Below, in pieces: positions 3,108-57,310 of a stretch of DNA of 64,000 bases (position 1 is the first letter of the stretch; every line of letters starts with the position of its first letter). The DNA is from Kallipyga massiliensis ph2 (lineage in GTDB: Bacteria; Bacillota; Clostridia; Tissierellales; Peptoniphilaceae): the NCBI RefSeq assembly GCF_000311985.1, contig NZ_HE978585.1:404346-468345 (forward strand), given 5' to 3'. Under the pieces are notes generated by a model. It did not search any database. It was given only the letters and a program-made list of their open reading frames with translations, and was not told the DNA's origin. The position numbers and the translations under genes were made by a program.

Positions 3108-5028
3108 GGTCCGTCCTCCCTTCCCGCTTGTCCTGTCTCTCCCTTCTTTCCTGCTCCAGGTAGACCAGGAGAACATTAATATCTGCCGGGGACACCCCGG
3201 AAATCCGGGAGGCCTGGCCTACCGATTCCGGCTGGACCTGGTTGAGCTTTTGGGCCGCTTCCTTCTTCAAGCCGTGGATCTTCCCATAATCCTCAACAAA
3301 GAGACGGCGGGATTCCATCTTCTTGAATTTTTCAATCTGGATATTCTGTTTTTTGATATAGCCCTCGTACTTGATCCGGTTCTCCACCTCCATCCGGACT
3401 TCCTTGGGGAGGCTGGGCCGGTCAGGGTCCAGTTCGGCTAATTTATCATAGCTTATTTCCGGCCGCCGGAGGAGGTCAGCCAGGCTCCCACCGGTTTTCA
3501 GTGGGGATGAGCCCAGGCCTTCCAGGAAGGCGTTGACTTCCGCCTTGGGGGTCACCATGAGGGCGGAGAGGCGGGCGACTTCTTCATCAATGGCTCGACC
3601 CTTTTTCTCCGCCAGAAGGTATCTCTCCCGAGAAGCCAGGCCAATCTCATAGCCCAGTTTGGTTAACCGGAGGTCGGCATTGTCTTGGCGGAGGGAGAGC
3701 CTGTATTCACAGCGGGAGGTCATCATCCGGTAGGGCTCATTGGTCCCTTTGGTCACCAGGTCGTCGATGAGGACGCCGATATAGGCCTGGGACCGGTCCA
3801 GGACGAAGGGGGAGAGGCCATCGATTTTCCGGGCGGCATTGATTCCCGCCATGAGCCCCTGGCAGGCCGCCTCTTCATAGCCCGATGACCCGTTGATCTG
3901 GCCGGCAAAAAAGAGGCCGGAGATGGTCCGAAGCTCCAGGGACCGGGTCAGGATCCGGGCGTCGATGCAGTCGTATTCAATTCCATAGGCCGACCGCATG
4001 ACCTCCGCCTTCTCCAGGCCGGGGAGGGTCCGGATTGCCTCCATTTGAACCTCTTCCGGCATGGTGGAGGACATCCCGTCCACATAGACTTCCAGGGTGG
4101 AGGCGGATTCGGGCTCCAGAAAGATCTGGTGGGCCTCATGGTCGGGGAAGCGGACCATCTTGTCTTCAATGGATGGGCAGTAGCGGGGGCCCACCCCTCT
4201 TTTTCCCCCCGAATACATGGTGGACCGGGTGATATTGGCTTCGATCAGGGCCTTGGTTTCCGCCGTGGTCCGAGTAAGATAGCAGGGCCACTGCTTGGAG
4301 GCGTCGTAGGTTTTATCCTGGTTGAGGAAGGAGAAGGGAACGATTTCCCGGTCCCCCTCCTGGATGATCATTTGGGAAAAATCTACCGTCCGCCGGTTGA
4401 TCCGGGGAGGCGTCCCCGTCTTGAACCGGCGGAGATCAATCCCGTGGGCCCGGAGGTCCTCCGAAAGGTGGAGGGCCGGCTTGGTATTGTGGGGACCTGA
4501 AGAATAGGTCAGGGGGCCCATGAGGATGGTCCCGTTGAGGAAGGTCCCCGTACAGAGGATGACGGTGGGGGCGGTAAAGATGGCCCCCTGGACCGTGGTC
4601 AAGCCCCGGACTTGGCCTTCTTCCACCAGGATCCGGTCAACCTCGGCCTCCACCAATTGGATTTTCTCCTCTTCCTCCAGCCGCCGTTTCATGACCTCTT
4701 GGTAACGCTTTTTATCCGCCTGGACCCGGAGGGAGTGGATGGCGGGACCTTTTGAGGTGTTAAGCATCCGGGACTGGAGGAAGGTCTCATCAATGACCAG
4801 GGCCATTTCCCCGCCCAAGGCGTCGATTTCCCGGACCAGGTGGCCCTTGCCGGTCCCCCCGATGTTGGGATTACAGGGCATATCGGCCACACTATCCAGG
4901 GATATGGAAAAGAGGGCGACTTTTTTCCCCAAGCGGGCTGCAGCAAAGGCGGCTTCGATGCCGGCATGGCCGGCACCCACTACGGCCACATCCACATCCG
5001 ACCGGTGGTAGCCTTGAATATTTTCCAT
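3100..5028 (-). CDS. mnmG: tRNA uridine-5-carboxymethylaminomethyl modification enzyme MnmG
   Basis: A 642-residue FAD protein that, with MnmE, installs cmnm5 on wobble U34 of certain tRNAs. The N-terminal dinucleotide-binding motif VVGAGHAGIEAA, the conserved DMPCNPNIGG and KGPA-HSLR segments and a helical C-terminal domain of about 100 residues are all present. The length is normal for MnmG. The gene starts 6 bases after mnmE and overlaps rsmG at its end. Confidence 0.97.
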   Translation of the reverse strand: MENIQGYHRSDVDVAVVGAGHAGIEAAFAAARLGKKVALFSISLDSVADMPCNPNIGGTGKGHLVREIDALGGEMALVIDETFLQSRMLNTSKGPAIHSLRVQADKKRYQEVMKRRLEEEEKIQLVEAEVDRILVEEGQVRGLTTVQGAIFTAPTVILCTGTFLNGTILMGPLTYSSGPHNTKPALHLSEDLRAHGIDLRRFKTGTPPRINRRTVDFSQMIIQEGDREIVPFSFLNQDKTYDASKQWPCYLTRTTAETKALIEANITRSTMYSGGKRGVGPRYCPSIEDKMVRFPDHEAHQIFLEPESASTLEVYVDGMSSTMPEEVQMEAIRTLPGLEKAEVMRSAYGIEYDCIDARILTRSLELRTISGLFFAGQINGSSGYEEAACQGLMAGINAARKIDGLSPFVLDRSQAYIGVLIDDLVTKGTNEPYRMMTSRCEYRLSLRQDNADLRLTKLGYEIGLASRERYLLAEKKGRAIDEEVARLSALMVTPKAEVNAFLEGLGSSPLKTGGSLADLLRRPEISYDKLAELDPDRPSLPKEVRMEVENRIKYEGYIKKQNIQIEKFKKMESRRLFVEDYGKIHGLKKEAAQKLNQVQPESVGQASRISGVSPADINVLLVYLEQERRERQDKREGRTDHE

Positions 5029-5034
5029 CTTGAC

Positions 5035-6468
5035 CTACTTTCCCACGCAAAAATCTTGAAAGATCTTATTCAGAACGTCTTCTTCAATGGATTCCCCGGT
5101 GATGGCGGCCAGGTCCTGGTAGGCATCCTGGAGGTCCACGTCCAGGGCATCCAGGCTAACCCCTGTTTCCAGGCCCCCAAGTGCGGAGGAGAGGGAGTCC
5201 CGGGCCTTTTCCAGGAGGTTGATCTGGCGGATATTGGAGAGGGAGTCCGCCCCCTCCCGACCGTCATCTCCCTCGAGAAAGAGGACGGACAGGGCCTTTT
5301 CCAGGTCTTCCATCCCCTGACCGGTCTTGGCGGAAATGGCCAGGGCCGGCCCCCCATCCCCTTCCTCCTGAAGGAGGGTTTGGGCATCCGAACTTAAGCC
5401 CAAGTCAACCTTGTTGACCAGGATGAGGTGGGGGCGGGCGGCGGATTTTTCCAGGATAGCCCGGTCCTCCTTCCGGATGGACTGGGACCCATCGACCAGG
5501 ACCAGGACCAAATCCGCCTCCTCCAGGAGGGCCATGGATCGGTCCACGCCAAGGGATTCAACCAGGTCGTCCGTTTCCCGGATCCCGGCCGTGTCAATCA
5601 GGCGGAGGCGGAGGCCCTCCAGCTGGTAGGATTCTTCGATAGCATCCCGGGTCGTCCCCGGGATGTCCGTGACGATGGCCCGGTCGTCCTCCAGGAGAGC
5701 ATTGAGGAGGGAGGACTTGCCCACATTGGGCCGGCCTACGATGACCGTCTTGATCCCCTCCCGGATCAGCCGGCCCGTCTCCGCCCCGGCCAGGGCTCGG
5801 TCCATCCGGTCCAAGAGGGCTCGGGCCTCCTCCTCCATGGGCTCCCGGGGGAGGTCCTCCATGGCGTCCTCCATGAAATTGATGGCGTATTCTACATGAG
5901 CTAGGAGCCTGAGGAGGTCCTCCTTCATCCCCTTGATCTTCTTGGAGACCCCTCCGGTCAGTTGGTGGACAGCGGATTCCTGGGCCAGGCCCGTCTGGGC
6001 TCGAATGATGTCTTCGACCGCCTCAGCCTGGGCCAGGTCAATCCGCCCGTTGAGGAAGGCCCTGCGGGTAAACTCCCCGGGCTCGGCCATTCTAGCCCCC
6101 ATCCGGAGAAATAGGGCCAACACTTTTTGAACAGAGACCCGGCCCCCATGGCAGTTCACTTCGACAATATCCTCCGCCGTATAGGTATGGGGGGCCTTCA
6201 TATAAACACAAAGAACCTCGTCAAGGACCTTTTCTCCCTCAATAATATGGCCATAGCGCAGCTTCCTTTGGTCAGAGGGGGAGAAGGCCTTGCCGGAATA
6301 GGCCCGGAAGGCTCGGTCCGCCAGGGAGAAGGCTTCCGGCCCGGACAGGCGGACAATCCCGATCCCCGCCGGAGCCTGGGCGGTGGAGATGGCCACGATG
6401 GTATCCTTGTCCACGGTCCCCATGGGCCGGCTATCCCCACTATTTTCCCTTCCGAATGGCTTGAACAT
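5035..6468 (-). CDS. mnmE: tRNA modification GTPase MnmE
   Basis: A 477-residue GTPase, partner of MnmG. The N-terminal folate-binding domain starts at TIVAISTAQAPAGIGIVRLSG-like sequence. G-domain motifs are VGRPNVGKSSLLNALL (G1), DIPGTTRD (G2), DTAG (G3) and NKVD (G4), and the C-terminus ends in the hallmark FCVGK. The ATG at 6468 follows AAAGGAA and is preferred. A longer frame would run back through the jag terminator, and an internal ATG at 6423 is a weaker alternative. Confidence 0.96.
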   Translation of the reverse strand: MFKPFGRENSGDSRPMGTVDKDTIVAISTAQAPAGIGIVRLSGPEAFSLADRAFRAYSGKAFSPSDQRKLRYGHIIEGEKVLDEVLCVYMKAPHTYTAEDIVEVNCHGGRVSVQKVLALFLRMGARMAEPGEFTRRAFLNGRIDLAQAEAVEDIIRAQTGLAQESAVHQLTGGVSKKIKGMKEDLLRLLAHVEYAINFMEDAMEDLPREPMEEEARALLDRMDRALAGAETGRLIREGIKTVIVGRPNVGKSSLLNALLEDDRAIVTDIPGTTRDAIEESYQLEGLRLRLIDTAGIRETDDLVESLGVDRSMALLEEADLVLVLVDGSQSIRKEDRAILEKSAARPHLILVNKVDLGLSSDAQTLLQEEGDGGPALAISAKTGQGMEDLEKALSVLFLEGDDGREGADSLSNIRQINLLEKARDSLSSALGGLETGVSLDALDVDLQDAYQDLAAITGESIEEDVLNKIFQDFCVGK

Positions 6469-28376: not shown

Positions 28377-28621
28377 CATCAACTCCTTTTCTTAATACAT
28401 ACATTAAAACATTTAGATAAACCTTTTCCTAGATAAATTATACCTTGTTAATTCTAAATTGTAAATATTAAGTGGAGTTGTATTTCCCCCTAGCCTCAAA
28501 AAATTGATCGAATAAGGAGGATCAGCACATGCGGATCCCTCGAGCTCCACCCCCACCAATCATCTTGTCATCTCCCCCTTTCTTTAGTATTCTAATTAAT
28601 TGTGATAGAAAGGAAGCGCTT

Positions 28622-44749: not shown

Positions 44750-44910
44750 CACTATTACCTCCGATCTGTTGAATTGATCCTGTGTGATTGCCCGGATAGA
44801 AGAGAAGATAGAGGAACTCTCTCTATATAATTAGTATAGTTCTAAATTACAAAAAAAAGGATTTGATGAAAAAAAGAAATCATTGAGGAGATGATCAGAG
44901 AAGCGGGCTA

Positions 44911-45186
44911 TTTTGCCACTGTCATACCGGCCCAACCGACGAAATTGGTGGAAAGAGGGGTATCCTCATACCGCTCTAAATGGCGAAATCATCAGGAAGA
45001 GGGGTATCGCCGTACCGCCCCAAATGGCGAAATCATCAGGAAGAGGGGTATCCTCATACCGCTCCAAACGGCGAAATCATCAGGAGGAGGGGTATTGCTG
45101 TACCGCTCCAAATGGCGAAATTCATCAGGAGGAGGGGTATTGCCATACCGCCCCAAATGACGAAATCATCAGGAAGAGGGGGAACT
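44911..45186. repeat. tandem palindrome array B (44-bp period)
   Basis: Units start with GAGGGGTAT at 44955, 44999, 45043, 45087 and 45132, with a partial unit at 45176 and a degenerate one from 44911. The period is 44 (once 45). Each has a 14-base palindrome, GGTAT-N4-ATACC or a GTACC variant, then a conserved core around AAATGGCGAAATCATCAGGAA. The A-to-G variants keep a G-T wobble only on the plus strand. Because 44 is not a multiple of three, several plus-strand frames stay open across it, but no start with good spacing is seen. The rest of 44750-45246 is AT-rich on the left and, on the right, includes CCTATGAGTCCC and CCTCATGAG. Confidence 0.88.
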
Positions 45187-47706: not shown

Positions 47707-47812
47707 GAAAATCCTACTGGTTGAAAAGTAGAAACCCTGCTGGATGAAGCTTGAAAATCCTGCTGGTTGAAAAGTAGAAATCCTGCTGGATGAAGCTTGA
47801 AAATCCTGCTGG
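47707..47812 (+). repeat. alternating 22/24-bp tandem repeat at the edge of a broken gene
   Basis: Units beginning GAAA(A)TCC(T)GCTGG start at 47707, 47731, 47753, 47777 and 47799, so spacings alternate 24, 22, 24, 22 (a 46-bp dimer). Linkers alternate TTGAAAAGTA and ATGAAGCTT. The last unit runs into AAA-ATC-CTG-CTG-GAT-GAA, the Walker B codons of the following ATPase remnant. The repeat is therefore amplified from the gene itself. Confidence 0.85.
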
Positions 47813-48852
47813 ATGAATGGCAGGAGGTGCCAAGCCTATGGGATGCTGTCCGCTATGAGGTGGATCGGAGGGGTGAGTTGGGGCAATTTATCCTGACAGG
47901 ATCATCTACGCCCACCCAGAAGGGAATTCTCCATAGTGGGGCGGGGAGAATTGGGTCCATTCGTATGCGACCCATGTCACTCTATGAATCCGGAGAGTCC
48001 AGCGGAGTCGTTTCACTCCAGGCGATCTGCCGGAAGGATTTCACAAACCATCTTGTTGAAGAAAGTAAAATAGAGGACCTCGCCCATTTTATTATTCGAG
48101 GAGGGTGGCCGGGTTCTTTGTCAGTAGCAAGGGAGGATGCCTATCAGGTCCCAAGAGAATATCTTCATCAGGTCATTAACCATGATATTTACCGTTTGGA
48201 AGGGGTTAACCGTGATACAAATAAAATGGAAGCCCTTCTGCGATCTTTGGCAAGAAATGAATCGACAACAGCTAGCATTCAAACACTGATTCGGGATATT
48301 AGCTTCCATGATGGAAATCCTATTAATAGAGAAACGGTAAGCAATTATTTAGCTCTTTTTGACCGTCTTTTCTTGATCGAAGACCAGAAAGCTTTCTCAT
48401 CCAATATTCGCTCCTCTGTTCCCATAAAACAACAAGCCAAGCGACATTTTGTTGATCCTTCTCTTCCGGCGGCTTTACTAGGTGTCACCGAGGAAGCTTT
48501 GATTCAGGACCTCAACACCTTCGGTTTCCTTTTCGAATCTTTATGTGAACGAGACCTCCTTATTTATGCGGAATCTTTCGGAGGAAAGCTATTCCACTAC
48601 CAGGATTATAAGGGGAATGAGATAGATGCGGTTATTTCCTTTGATGATGGTGATTGGGCTGCTTTTGAAATCAAGTTGGGGGCTGGACAGATTGATAAGG
48701 CGGCAAAGCATCTTTTGGCGATCAAGAAACAATTTGCCGAGGATGGGTTGAAAGGACCGGAAGTCCTTTGCGTCCTATGTGGCCTAAGCCATGCAGCTTA
48801 TCAGAGGGAAGACGGGGTGTATGTGGTTCCCATCACTGCCCTGAGAGAATGA
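47800..48852 (+). pseudogene. 5'-truncated AAA/DUF4143 ATPase
   Basis: About 350 codons remain of an AAA_14/DUF4143 ATPase. The reading begins at KILLDEWQEVPSLWDAVRYE, the Walker B segment, followed by FILTGSSTPT and the C-terminal DUF4143 domain (FLFESLCERDLLIYAE). The roughly 80 N-terminal residues with Walker A are missing. No ATG with a ribosome site is present, only a TTG inside the repeat. The right end is intact, and AT-rich codons suggest acquired DNA. The protein cannot bind ATP in the normal way. Confidence 0.85.
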
Positions 48853-49786: not shown

Positions 49787-50311
49787 ATGACAAAGAAAAA
49801 TCCCATTGTGACGATTGAAATGGAATCAGGCGGGACCATCCGGGCCGAGCTCTACCCGGACCTGGCCCCCAATACGGTCCGGAACTTCCTGGCCCTGGTG
49901 GCGGACGGATTTTACGATGGAACCATCTTCCACCGGGTCATCCCCGGCTTCATGATCCAGGGAGGTGACCCCGAGGGCACCGGCATGGGCGGCCCGGGCT
50001 ATTCCATCCAAGGCGAATTTGCCTCCAACGGCATCCCCAACGACCTCAAGCATGACCGCGGCGTCCTCTCCATGGCCCGGTCCATGATGGCCGACTCCGC
50101 CGGCTCCCAGTTCTTCATTATGCACGCTCCGGCACCCCATCTCAATGGCGACTATGCCGCATTCGGCAAGGTCATTGAGGGCCTGGATGTCGTGGATGAG
50201 ATCGCAAAGACACCGACCGGCTTCCAGGACCGTCCCCTCGAGGACCAGGTCATGAAGAAGGTGACCGCAGAAACCTTTGGGGAAAGCTACGATCCTCCGG
50301 AAAAGATGTAA
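49787..50311 (+). CDS. cyclophilin-type peptidyl-prolyl cis-trans isomerase
   Basis: A 174-residue cytosolic cyclophilin. Motifs FHRVIPGFMIQGGDP, SMARSMMADSAGSQFFIM and the Phe/Gly block HLNGDYAAFGKV carry the active-site Arg, Phe and Gln. No signal peptide is seen. It follows the lipoprotein by 20 bases, possibly in one operon. A long hairpin terminator follows. Confidence 0.93.
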   Translation: MTKKNPIVTIEMESGGTIRAELYPDLAPNTVRNFLALVADGFYDGTIFHRVIPGFMIQGGDPEGTGMGGPGYSIQGEFASNGIPNDLKHDRGVLSMARSMMADSAGSQFFIMHAPAPHLNGDYAAFGKVIEGLDVVDEIAKTPTGFQDRPLEDQVMKKVTAETFGESYDPPEKM

Positions 50312-50320
50312 AAACAATAC

Positions 50321-50396
50321 AGCCCCCAGGTCCACTTTCGCTTAGGCAAATCCTTCGGATTTGCAATGCGCTCAAGCTGGACCTGGGGGCTTTTTG
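50321..50396 (+). terminator. long-armed terminator with internal hairpin
   Basis: A 14-bp stem (AGCCCCCAGGTCCA with its complement at 50378-50391) encloses a 43-base loop that itself holds GCAAATCC-TTC-GGATTTGC (50346-50364). TTTTT follows. It ends the cyclophilin transcript and resembles a compact folded element more than a simple terminator. Confidence 0.8.
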
Positions 50397-50429
50397 GTTG
50401 GTGGGGGTAGTGGGATTGGGCAGGGGAAG

Positions 50430-50785
50430 CTGGCCCCCTCATTCGGCGGAATGCGGGAACAAGGGGGCCAAGTGGAGCCCTCTTATCTGGCGGAATTGGG
50501 GGAAAGGGGGGCTATGGTGAGCCGCCTCATTCGGCGAAATGCGGGGAAAAGGGGGCCATGCGGGGCCGCCTTATTCGGCGAAATGCGAAGAAAAGGGGGC
50601 CATGGTGAGCCCCCTTGTTCGGCGAAATGCAGTAGAAAGGGGGCCATGGTGGGCCGCCTTATCCGGCGGAATGCGGGAACAAGGGGGCCATGGTAAGCCT
50701 CCTCATTCGGCAAAATGCAGGAACAAGGGGGCCAAGCGGAGCCTCCTCATTCGCCGAAATCGTGGGAAGGGGGGCCGCCGCCCTA
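50430..50785. repeat. tandem palindrome array C (exact 44-bp period, eight units)
   Basis: The core ATTCGGCGAAATGC, or a variant, starts at 50441, 50485, 50529, 50573, 50617, 50661, 50705 and 50749, exactly 44 bases apart. Between cores is a palindrome based on GGGGGCCATGGTGAGCCCCC with arm changes: GGCC/GGCC, GGCT/AGCC, GGGGGC/GCCTCC. Several changes are compensated or kept as G-T wobble on the plus strand, so an RNA hairpin is plausible. Plus-strand frames stay open, giving repetitive Arg/Gly/Pro peptides, but no convincing start exists. It lies between two convergent genes. Confidence 0.9.
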
Positions 50786-50796
50786 TGAGCCCCCAC

Positions 50797-50839
50797 AAAA
50801 AAGCCCCCGGTCGCCAAGAGGCGGTCAGGGGCTTTTTTT
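50797..50839 (-). terminator. Rho-independent terminator of hutH
   Basis: AAAAAAGCCCC and GGGGCTTTTTT arms with an inner CGC/GCG stem. It can act on both strands, but its place right after hutH favours the minus strand. Confidence 0.85.
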
Positions 50840-50890: not shown

Positions 50891-52429
50891 CTACATCTCG
50901 ATGTCGACGACCTTTTCGACGGCGTTCAGGAGGTCGTCGTTGACCAGGAGGTCGGTCATCTTTTCCAGCTCGTCATACATCTGGATGTCTTTGTCGTGGG
51001 CGATGAAGTCGAGTTTGGACCGGACAAGGTCGTAGGCGGCTTGGGTGCCTTTGCCCAGCTGGCCGTCGGTCATTTCCTTGCGGAAGTCGATGGCTTGGAC
51101 GGCAGCCATGATTTCGGTGGCGACGACCCGGCGGGAGTTCTTGATGATCTCGCGAGCCTTGCGGGCGGCGATGGTTCCCATAGAGACGAAGTCTTCCTGG
51201 TTCTCGCATGAGGTGATGGAATCAACGGAGGCGGGGTGGGCCAGGACCTTGTTCTCGGAAACCAGGGCGGCACAGGCGTATTGGGTAATCATGAAGCCGG
51301 AGTTGAGGCCGGGGTGCTTGACCAGGAAGGAGGGGAAGTCGGAGAGCTGGGCATTGACCAGGCGCTCGACCCGGCGTTCGGAGACGTTGCCAAGCTCAGC
51401 GGCGCCGATGCCCAGGAAGTCGAAGGGCTGGGCCATGGGCTCCCCATGGAAGTTCCCGCCGGAGATGACTTCATCCTCAGAGATGATGATGGGGTTGTCG
51501 GTGGCCGCATTGACTTCGATGGCGACCTTGTCTGCTACATAATTGATGGTGTCTTTTGATGCGCCATGGATCTGGGGCATGCAGCGGAGGGTGTAGGCAT
51601 CCTGGACCCGGATTTCGGCAGTGTGGGTCATGAAGGTGGAGCCCTCGGTCAGGGTCCGGATGTTCTTGGCGGTGGTCAGGTTGCCGGCATGGGGGCGGAT
51701 GGTGTGGAGCTTCTCATAGAAAGCATCGATGATGCCGCGGTGGGCTTCCAGGGAGAGGGCACCGGCGATGTCGGCCAGCTTGGCCAGCTTGATGGCATCA
51801 TAGGTGGCCAGGGCGCCGATGGCGGTCAGGACCGTGGTTCCGTTGATGAGGGCCAGGCCTTCCTTGGCCTCCAGGTGGATGACCTTGACGCCGGCCTTGT
51901 CCATGGCCTCCTGGCCGGACATGAGTTCGCCCTTATAGAAAGCACGGCCCAGGCCCAGCATGGGCAGGACCATGTGGGAGAGGGGGGCCAGGTCGCCGGA
52001 TGCGCCGATGGAGCCTTTTTCAGGAACATGGGGGACGACGCCTTTGTTGAGCATATCGAGGAGGGTCTGGACGGTCTCCAGGCGGATGCCCGACACGCCC
52101 TTGACCAGGGAGTTAATCCGGATCAGCATGAGGGCGCGGACTTCTTCTTCGCTCAGGGGGTCGCCGTAGCCGGAGGAATGGGTCCGGATGAGGTTCTCCT
52201 GGAGCTGGGAGCAATCGTCCTTGTCGATGTGGACCTTGGCCAGGGAGCCGAAGCCGGTGGTGACACCGTAGACGACCCGCTCTTCCTCCACAATTTTGTC
52301 CACGATCTTCCGGGACTCTTTCACTTTTTCAATGTTCTCCGGGGCGATCTCCACCGGAGCCTTCTCACGTGCAACGGCAACGACCTCTTCCAGGGTCAGG
52401 TCTTCTCCATTTAGAATCACTTTTTCCAT
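50891..52429 (-). CDS. hutH: histidine ammonia-lyase
   Basis: A 512-residue lyase that converts histidine to urocanate and ammonia, the first step of histidine degradation. The MIO cofactor triad Ala-Ser-Gly is in GSIGASGDLAPLSHM (about residue 145). The active-site tyrosine loop YGVTTGFGSLA and later FHGEPMAQPFD match HutH. Length is normal. hutU and hutI are not in the window. It is divergent from a SARP-like regulator. Confidence 0.96.
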   Translation of the reverse strand: MEKVILNGEDLTLEEVVAVAREKAPVEIAPENIEKVKESRKIVDKIVEEERVVYGVTTGFGSLAKVHIDKDDCSQLQENLIRTHSSGYGDPLSEEEVRALMLIRINSLVKGVSGIRLETVQTLLDMLNKGVVPHVPEKGSIGASGDLAPLSHMVLPMLGLGRAFYKGELMSGQEAMDKAGVKVIHLEAKEGLALINGTTVLTAIGALATYDAIKLAKLADIAGALSLEAHRGIIDAFYEKLHTIRPHAGNLTTAKNIRTLTEGSTFMTHTAEIRVQDAYTLRCMPQIHGASKDTINYVADKVAIEVNAATDNPIIISEDEVISGGNFHGEPMAQPFDFLGIGAAELGNVSERRVERLVNAQLSDFPSFLVKHPGLNSGFMITQYACAALVSENKVLAHPASVDSITSCENQEDFVSMGTIAARKAREIIKNSRRVVATEIMAAVQAIDFRKEMTDGQLGKGTQAAYDLVRSKLDFIAHDKDIQMYDELEKMTDLLVNDDLLNAVEKVVDIEM

Positions 52430-57242: not shown

Positions 57243-57255
57243 AGCTAAAGCACGG

Positions 57256-57310
57256 CAGAGCCATATGGAGCCTCCTTATCTGGTGAAACCGGAGAAAAGG
57301 GGGGCTCCCC
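57256..57310. repeat. single unit of the 44-bp palindrome family (locus D)
   Basis: GAGCCATATGGAGCCTCC then TTATCTGGTGAAACCGGAG and AAAAGGGGGGCTCCCC align almost base for base with unit 2 of array C (GCCAAGTGGAGCCCTC, TTATCTGGCGGAATTGG, GGGAAAGGGGGGCT). One copy is present, between two convergent genes, followed by a terminator, like array C. Confidence 0.75.

Follow-up and report, generated by a model that had tools for sequence, protein, structure and literature searches.

The boxB module of the pneumococcal BOX repeats is about 45 bp long. BOX elements of Streptococcus pneumoniae are organised as boxA-boxB(n)-boxC (PMC3049150), and the palindromes of REP sequences and BIMEs are tagged with GTAG or CGTC (PMC3733652). 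Whether selection on such BOX- and BIME-type repeats acts on sequence or on pairing is a long-standing question. Here we describe an array of 44-bp repeats, array C, in a 64-kb stretch of the Kallipyga massiliensis ph2 genome (the window). It is probable (we would put it at roughly 0.6) that array C is a member of a genus-specific family of palindromic repeats, set in tandem between genes and organised in the manner of BOX boxB arrays or BIMEs, and that this family grows in place and has palindrome arms kept by recognition or by folding.

The array lies between two convergent genes. The features of the locus, in window coordinates, are:

49787..50311 (+), cyclophilin-type peptidyl-prolyl isomerase gene (PF00160, 1.9e-50), convergent neighbour of array C
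50313..50399 (+), cyclophilin terminator, a long inverted repeat with the inner palindrome GGCAAATCC-TT-CGGATTTGC
50433..50784 (+), array C, eight head-to-tail 44-bp units without indels, the last unit degenerate at its 3' end
50461..50747 (+), the seven inter-unit palindromes of array C (G-arm, 8-nt loop, C-arm), the first at 50461-50483 and the others following at 44-bp intervals; the part of the repeat under constraint
50797..50838 (-), hutH terminator hairpin, symmetric, with an A-run before it and a T-run after it
50891..52429 (-), hutH-like aromatic amino acid lyase gene (PF00221, 2.5e-196), convergent neighbour of array C

Each unit is made up of a GCCNCCT arm, a 22-nt core, an AGGGGGC arm and an 8-nt spacer, and a palindrome spans each junction between units, running from a G-arm across the spacer to the C-arm of the following unit. 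The earlier note on this DNA had described eight units with an exact 44-bp period and no indel, situated between the cyclophilin and hutH terminators, and both the count and the position are confirmed by the coordinates above. TRF gives the array a score of 330 at period 44 and of 386-388 at periods 88 and 132. A coding function was rejected since 44 is not divisible by 3 and no gene is predicted there by the gene model, as was a CRISPR-like reading, because the units diverge throughout and there is no constant repeat with unique spacers. Searching the 64-kb window against Rfam gave no match above the gathering score, only weak chance matches.

To place array C we analysed selected stretches of the K. 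massiliensis genome (1,770,670 bases; the published ph2T genome has 1,770,679 bases, PMC3910704) and of two further Kallipyga genomes, G001, taken as K. gabonensis GM4, and G002, taken as MAG SUG1733; the three are 81-91% complete. Using DNA and covariance-model searches, about 20 arrays together with single copies, around 100 units in all, were located in the K. massiliensis genome, with the covariance model of the unit finding dozens of them at E values of 1e-12 to 1e-6. All three Kallipyga genomes carry the repeat family, and no unit was detected in 127 genomes of other genera within the same taxonomic family, which puts array C far beyond chance. Likewise, 24 genomes representing other families of the order yielded no member, and when named genomes and viral contigs were scanned with patterns, all hits beyond Kallipyga were isolated and attributable to chance. 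There are several sequence subtypes with a common architecture and period. Arrays range from 1 to 14 units, nearly all the units of an array share one orientation, and 114 of the 138 steps between units are exactly 44 bp, with 16 steps of 43 bp. Two further members lie in the window:

44909..45181 (+), divergent array of the same family, with arms ACCGCTC / GAGGGGT, core GGCGAAAT and period 44
57253..57306 (+), one degenerate unit on its own; G002 has two units at the equivalent place

A literature search found no paper on repeats of the genus, and the arrays add a genus-limited family that we have not found described. The 44-bp arrays are a new, genus-specific sequence family of a kind already known; as the GC-rich palindrome is preserved while the rest of the unit drifts, we regard them as a new family of a known kind of repeat and not as a new system.

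The family works like BOX or BIME in its organisation and belongs to neither. As with BOX, these are short intergenic repeats with a tandem module that varies in number between genomes (44 bp, present 1 to 14 times in Kallipyga), a limited taxonomic range, fold-back potential and an enrichment between convergent genes. Unlike BOX, the Kallipyga arrays end without counterparts of boxA or boxC (31 left and right flanks, by inspection), their arms are GC-rich runs and no Rfam or sequence link was found. Membership of BOX was therefore rejected: the variable tandem module is present, but the conserved termini, or end modules, are not. With REP sequences and BIMEs the family shares short GC-rich intergenic palindromes in many copies, clustered and often downstream of genes. 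However, the weighted consensus of 171 Kallipyga units lacks a GTAG or CGTC tag, and the units are strictly head-to-tail at a near-fixed period whereas REP/BIME orientations are mixed. A search for the RAYT, or Y1 tyrosine, transposase with PF01797 found none in the three Kallipyga genomes (81-91% complete), while 5 of 14 control genomes were positive. With neither tag nor RAYT, REP was rejected. The likeness to MITEs such as RUP is that of small dispersed non-coding repeats with inverted arms, but in Kallipyga the inverted arms are found within each unit, and by inspection the arrays have no common ends; terminal inverted repeats bounding them were not seen, nor was a target-site duplication at the two present/absent sites examined, whose boundaries are not clean.

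By investigating the neighbouring genes we found that convergent gene pairs hold 17 of 30 arrays, compared with 49 of 263 gene pairs overall (Fisher P=6e-7), though this count includes orthologs and overstates independence. For K. massiliensis alone the figures are 9 of 15 arrays and 7 of 53 gene pairs (P=6e-4). The neighbours are ordinary metabolic or cell-wall genes. Between genes in the same direction there are two sense and two antisense orthologous groups of arrays; array orientation is independent of transcription, and a strand-specific RNA was rejected on these grounds. Pneumococcal BOX has the same convergent bias, which was read by its authors as insertions being tolerated at the 3' ends of genes (PMC3049150).

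Comparison of flanks identified orthologous array sites in two or three species, and at these sites the Kallipyga species differ in unit number and sequence. At the hutH site K. massiliensis and K. gabonensis each carry eight units, which differ in sequence between the two species; in G002 the array is absent although the cyclophilin and hutH genes are still neighbours. At the place equivalent to 28538-28546 of the window G002 carries an array and K. massiliensis is empty. Independent assemblies carry arrays at the same places, which rules against an assembly artefact. Within an array near units are more alike than far ones, similarity falling with distance, and 88 of the 171 units have their nearest relative in their own array, both of which show local tandem duplication and loss. 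The 31 left and right flanks share no common sequence at the array ends by inspection, and no clean boundary or target-site duplication was seen at either of the two present/absent sites that were compared. Comparison of the three closely related genomes shows units being gained, lost and reshuffled in arrays whose sites stay fixed.

The palindrome had been proposed to change in both arms together, as a sign of kept pairing. This does not hold for array C, where the G-arm is GGGGGC in all seven internal hairpins and only the C-arm varies (in order CCCTC, CCGCC, CCGCC, CCCCC, CCGCC, CCTCC and CCTCC), giving three stems with G.G mismatches, three with G.T pairs and one perfect stem, and no compensatory double change. 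Of the examples put forward, GGGGGC/GCCTCC contains a G.T pair, while GGCC/GGCC and GGCT/AGCC are loop bases adjacent to the stem, which do pair in three of the seven units (T-A, C-G and C-G) but are C.A in the other four. Covariation was then assessed position by position with shuffling within arrays, for 159 hairpins from 26 arrays in the three genomes. Stem positions 1-6 showed no covariation, with 148 Watson-Crick mismatches against 147.4 after shuffling (P=0.63), and only the loop-closing pair covaried (31 mismatches against 46.1, P<0.001). This pair switches in blocks between C-G and A-T within mosaic arrays, and its covariation can be explained without compensatory mutation if hairpin cassettes are copied intact. 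Adjacent arms in the K. massiliensis genome do pair better than arms shuffled within the array, but the by-position test places this signal in the loop-closing pair only. A count of covariation across the whole alignment, which was apparently positive, was set aside in favour of the within-array test because it mixes subfamilies. Alignment of more loci had been named beforehand as the check that could refute kept pairing. Its outcome goes against kept covariation but not against a kept palindrome, since the stem does not covary and yet the arms are near-invariant in recent duplicates; the palindrome is constrained, and it is the compensatory change that is missing.

Tandem copies amount to an internal mutation experiment, in which the palindrome arms are held while core and spacer drift, and the comparison of held and drifting bases allows selection on sequence to be separated from selection on pairing. 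Recent duplicates, defined as disjoint pairs of units differing at ≤6 positions, gave 47 pairs with 163 differences. Only 10 differences fell in the 13 arm positions compared with 48 expected (binomial P=9e-14). When only G/C sites are considered 10 of 520 had changed in the arms and 138 of 696 elsewhere (P=8e-25), an odds ratio of 0.08 or approximately twelve-fold depletion. The middle position of the C-arm accounts for 6 of the 10 arm changes, and the AT shortly after the C-arm had none among recent duplicates. The GGCGAAAT core, which the earlier note had used, is not specially constrained, with 43 changes against 29.6 expected, above the average. Detection bias is small, as an undetected unit was hidden in just 2 of 138 steps. 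The arms AGGNGGC and GCCNCCT are thus held, through purifying selection or through recombination concentrated on them; such recombination, or gene conversion, could mimic selection. Arm mutations are removed and not compensated, a pattern that suits recognition of the sequence no less than it suits folding.

Beyond the organisation, turnover, context and arm constraint seen above, we infer what acts on the arms. Slippage or unequal exchange, aided by the palindromes, would lengthen and shorten the arrays in place, and the arrays would be tolerated at the 3' ends of genes. The dyad AGGNGGC-N8-GCCNCCT would be kept for one of two reasons: it may be recognised as DNA, putatively by a protein of the nucleoid or of DNA topology or by an enzyme responsible for its past spread, or it may fold into a hairpin. 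Recognition of the sequence is slightly favoured over pure pairing, since changes in the stem are removed instead of being compensated.

A more specific form of recognition can be put forward tentatively, though we think it doubtful. The arrays may serve as multi-site landing pads for a putative sequence-specific Kallipyga protein, gyrase- or nucleoid-protein-like, that reads the dyad and organises or insulates the DNA between convergent genes, where converging transcription piles up supercoils. The dyad would be the site, the 44-bp period the spacing, and the palindrome would be kept by recognition, not by RNA pairing. The near-invariance of the arms in recent duplicates would suit such a protein, with the one middle arm position that drifts uncompensated resembling a degenerate half-site, as would the enrichment between convergent genes and the mostly exact period. 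On the other hand, the array is missing at an orthologous site in a sister species, some arrays lie outside convergent pairs and the 16 steps of 43 bp depart from the spacing.

It is unlikely that the arrays act instead as structured RNA, with hairpins in the transcript protecting the 3' ends of mRNAs or stopping read-through from either convergent gene. On both strands array C has a better fold than shuffled sequences (z -4.7 and -4.2), the hairpins are GC-rich and at gene 3' ends, and the better pairing of adjacent arms might be read in the same way. However, array C is located beyond the cyclophilin terminator and before that of hutH and, being outside both, is probably little transcribed. 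Its minimum-energy fold is long-range with no row of unit hairpins, which together with the position outside the two terminators makes a dedicated RNA role less likely. The independence of orientation from transcription, the stem without covariation and the lack of an Rfam family also stand against it.

Spread by a transposase, as a miniature element of the MITE or REP-like kind, seems more improbable again. While the arrays are dispersed, genus-specific and present or absent at orthologous sites, and a terminator-type repeat adjoins several of them, their ends are not conserved, target-site duplications are not seen and the Y1 transposase was found in none of the three genomes. Neutral satellite-like tandem DNA without function, its arms homogenised by recombination at the palindromes, is scarcely credible, for although turnover is fast, absence is tolerated in G002 and the neighbours are ordinary, arm changes in recent duplicates are depleted some twelve-fold at equal base composition and the same arms are kept across arrays with very different cores.

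Other repeats are found close to the arrays. Within the cyclophilin terminator there is a repeat (GCTTAGGCAAATCCTTCGGATTTGCAATGCGC) that is dispersed and specific to the genus, copies of which are also present in G001 and G002. In K. massiliensis four of its five sites are no more than a few hundred bases from a 44-bp array, and at the hutH site of G002 both the terminator repeat and the array are missing. Between the cyclophilin gene and the ortholog of array C in K. gabonensis (L101) there are two copies of the terminator repeat, with an insert of ~600 bp enclosed by them. The insert contains a small gene that by eye has the look of a RelB/DinJ-type antitoxin, followed by a broken remnant. 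In L085, after 4222, and in L090, at 4262-5571, runs of N beside the arrays are flanked by sequence that by eye resembles IS3-type ends (GTTGGACCA...CCCCAAAAAGTTGGACC), from which it would seem that insertion sequences may sit in or beside arrays. Elsewhere in the window a tandem repeat of 23/46 bp (AAAATCCTGCTGGATGAAAAGTA) occupies 47708-47817, at the start of the gene called at 47797-48852; its sequence has no relation to that of the 44-bp family. Finally, half of the terminator repeat forms a perfect 32-bp tandem repeat of 3.9 copies (GCCTAAGCGAAAGTGGGTCTGGGGGTCGTCCC) at L005 1787-1912, where it adjoins a 44-bp array.
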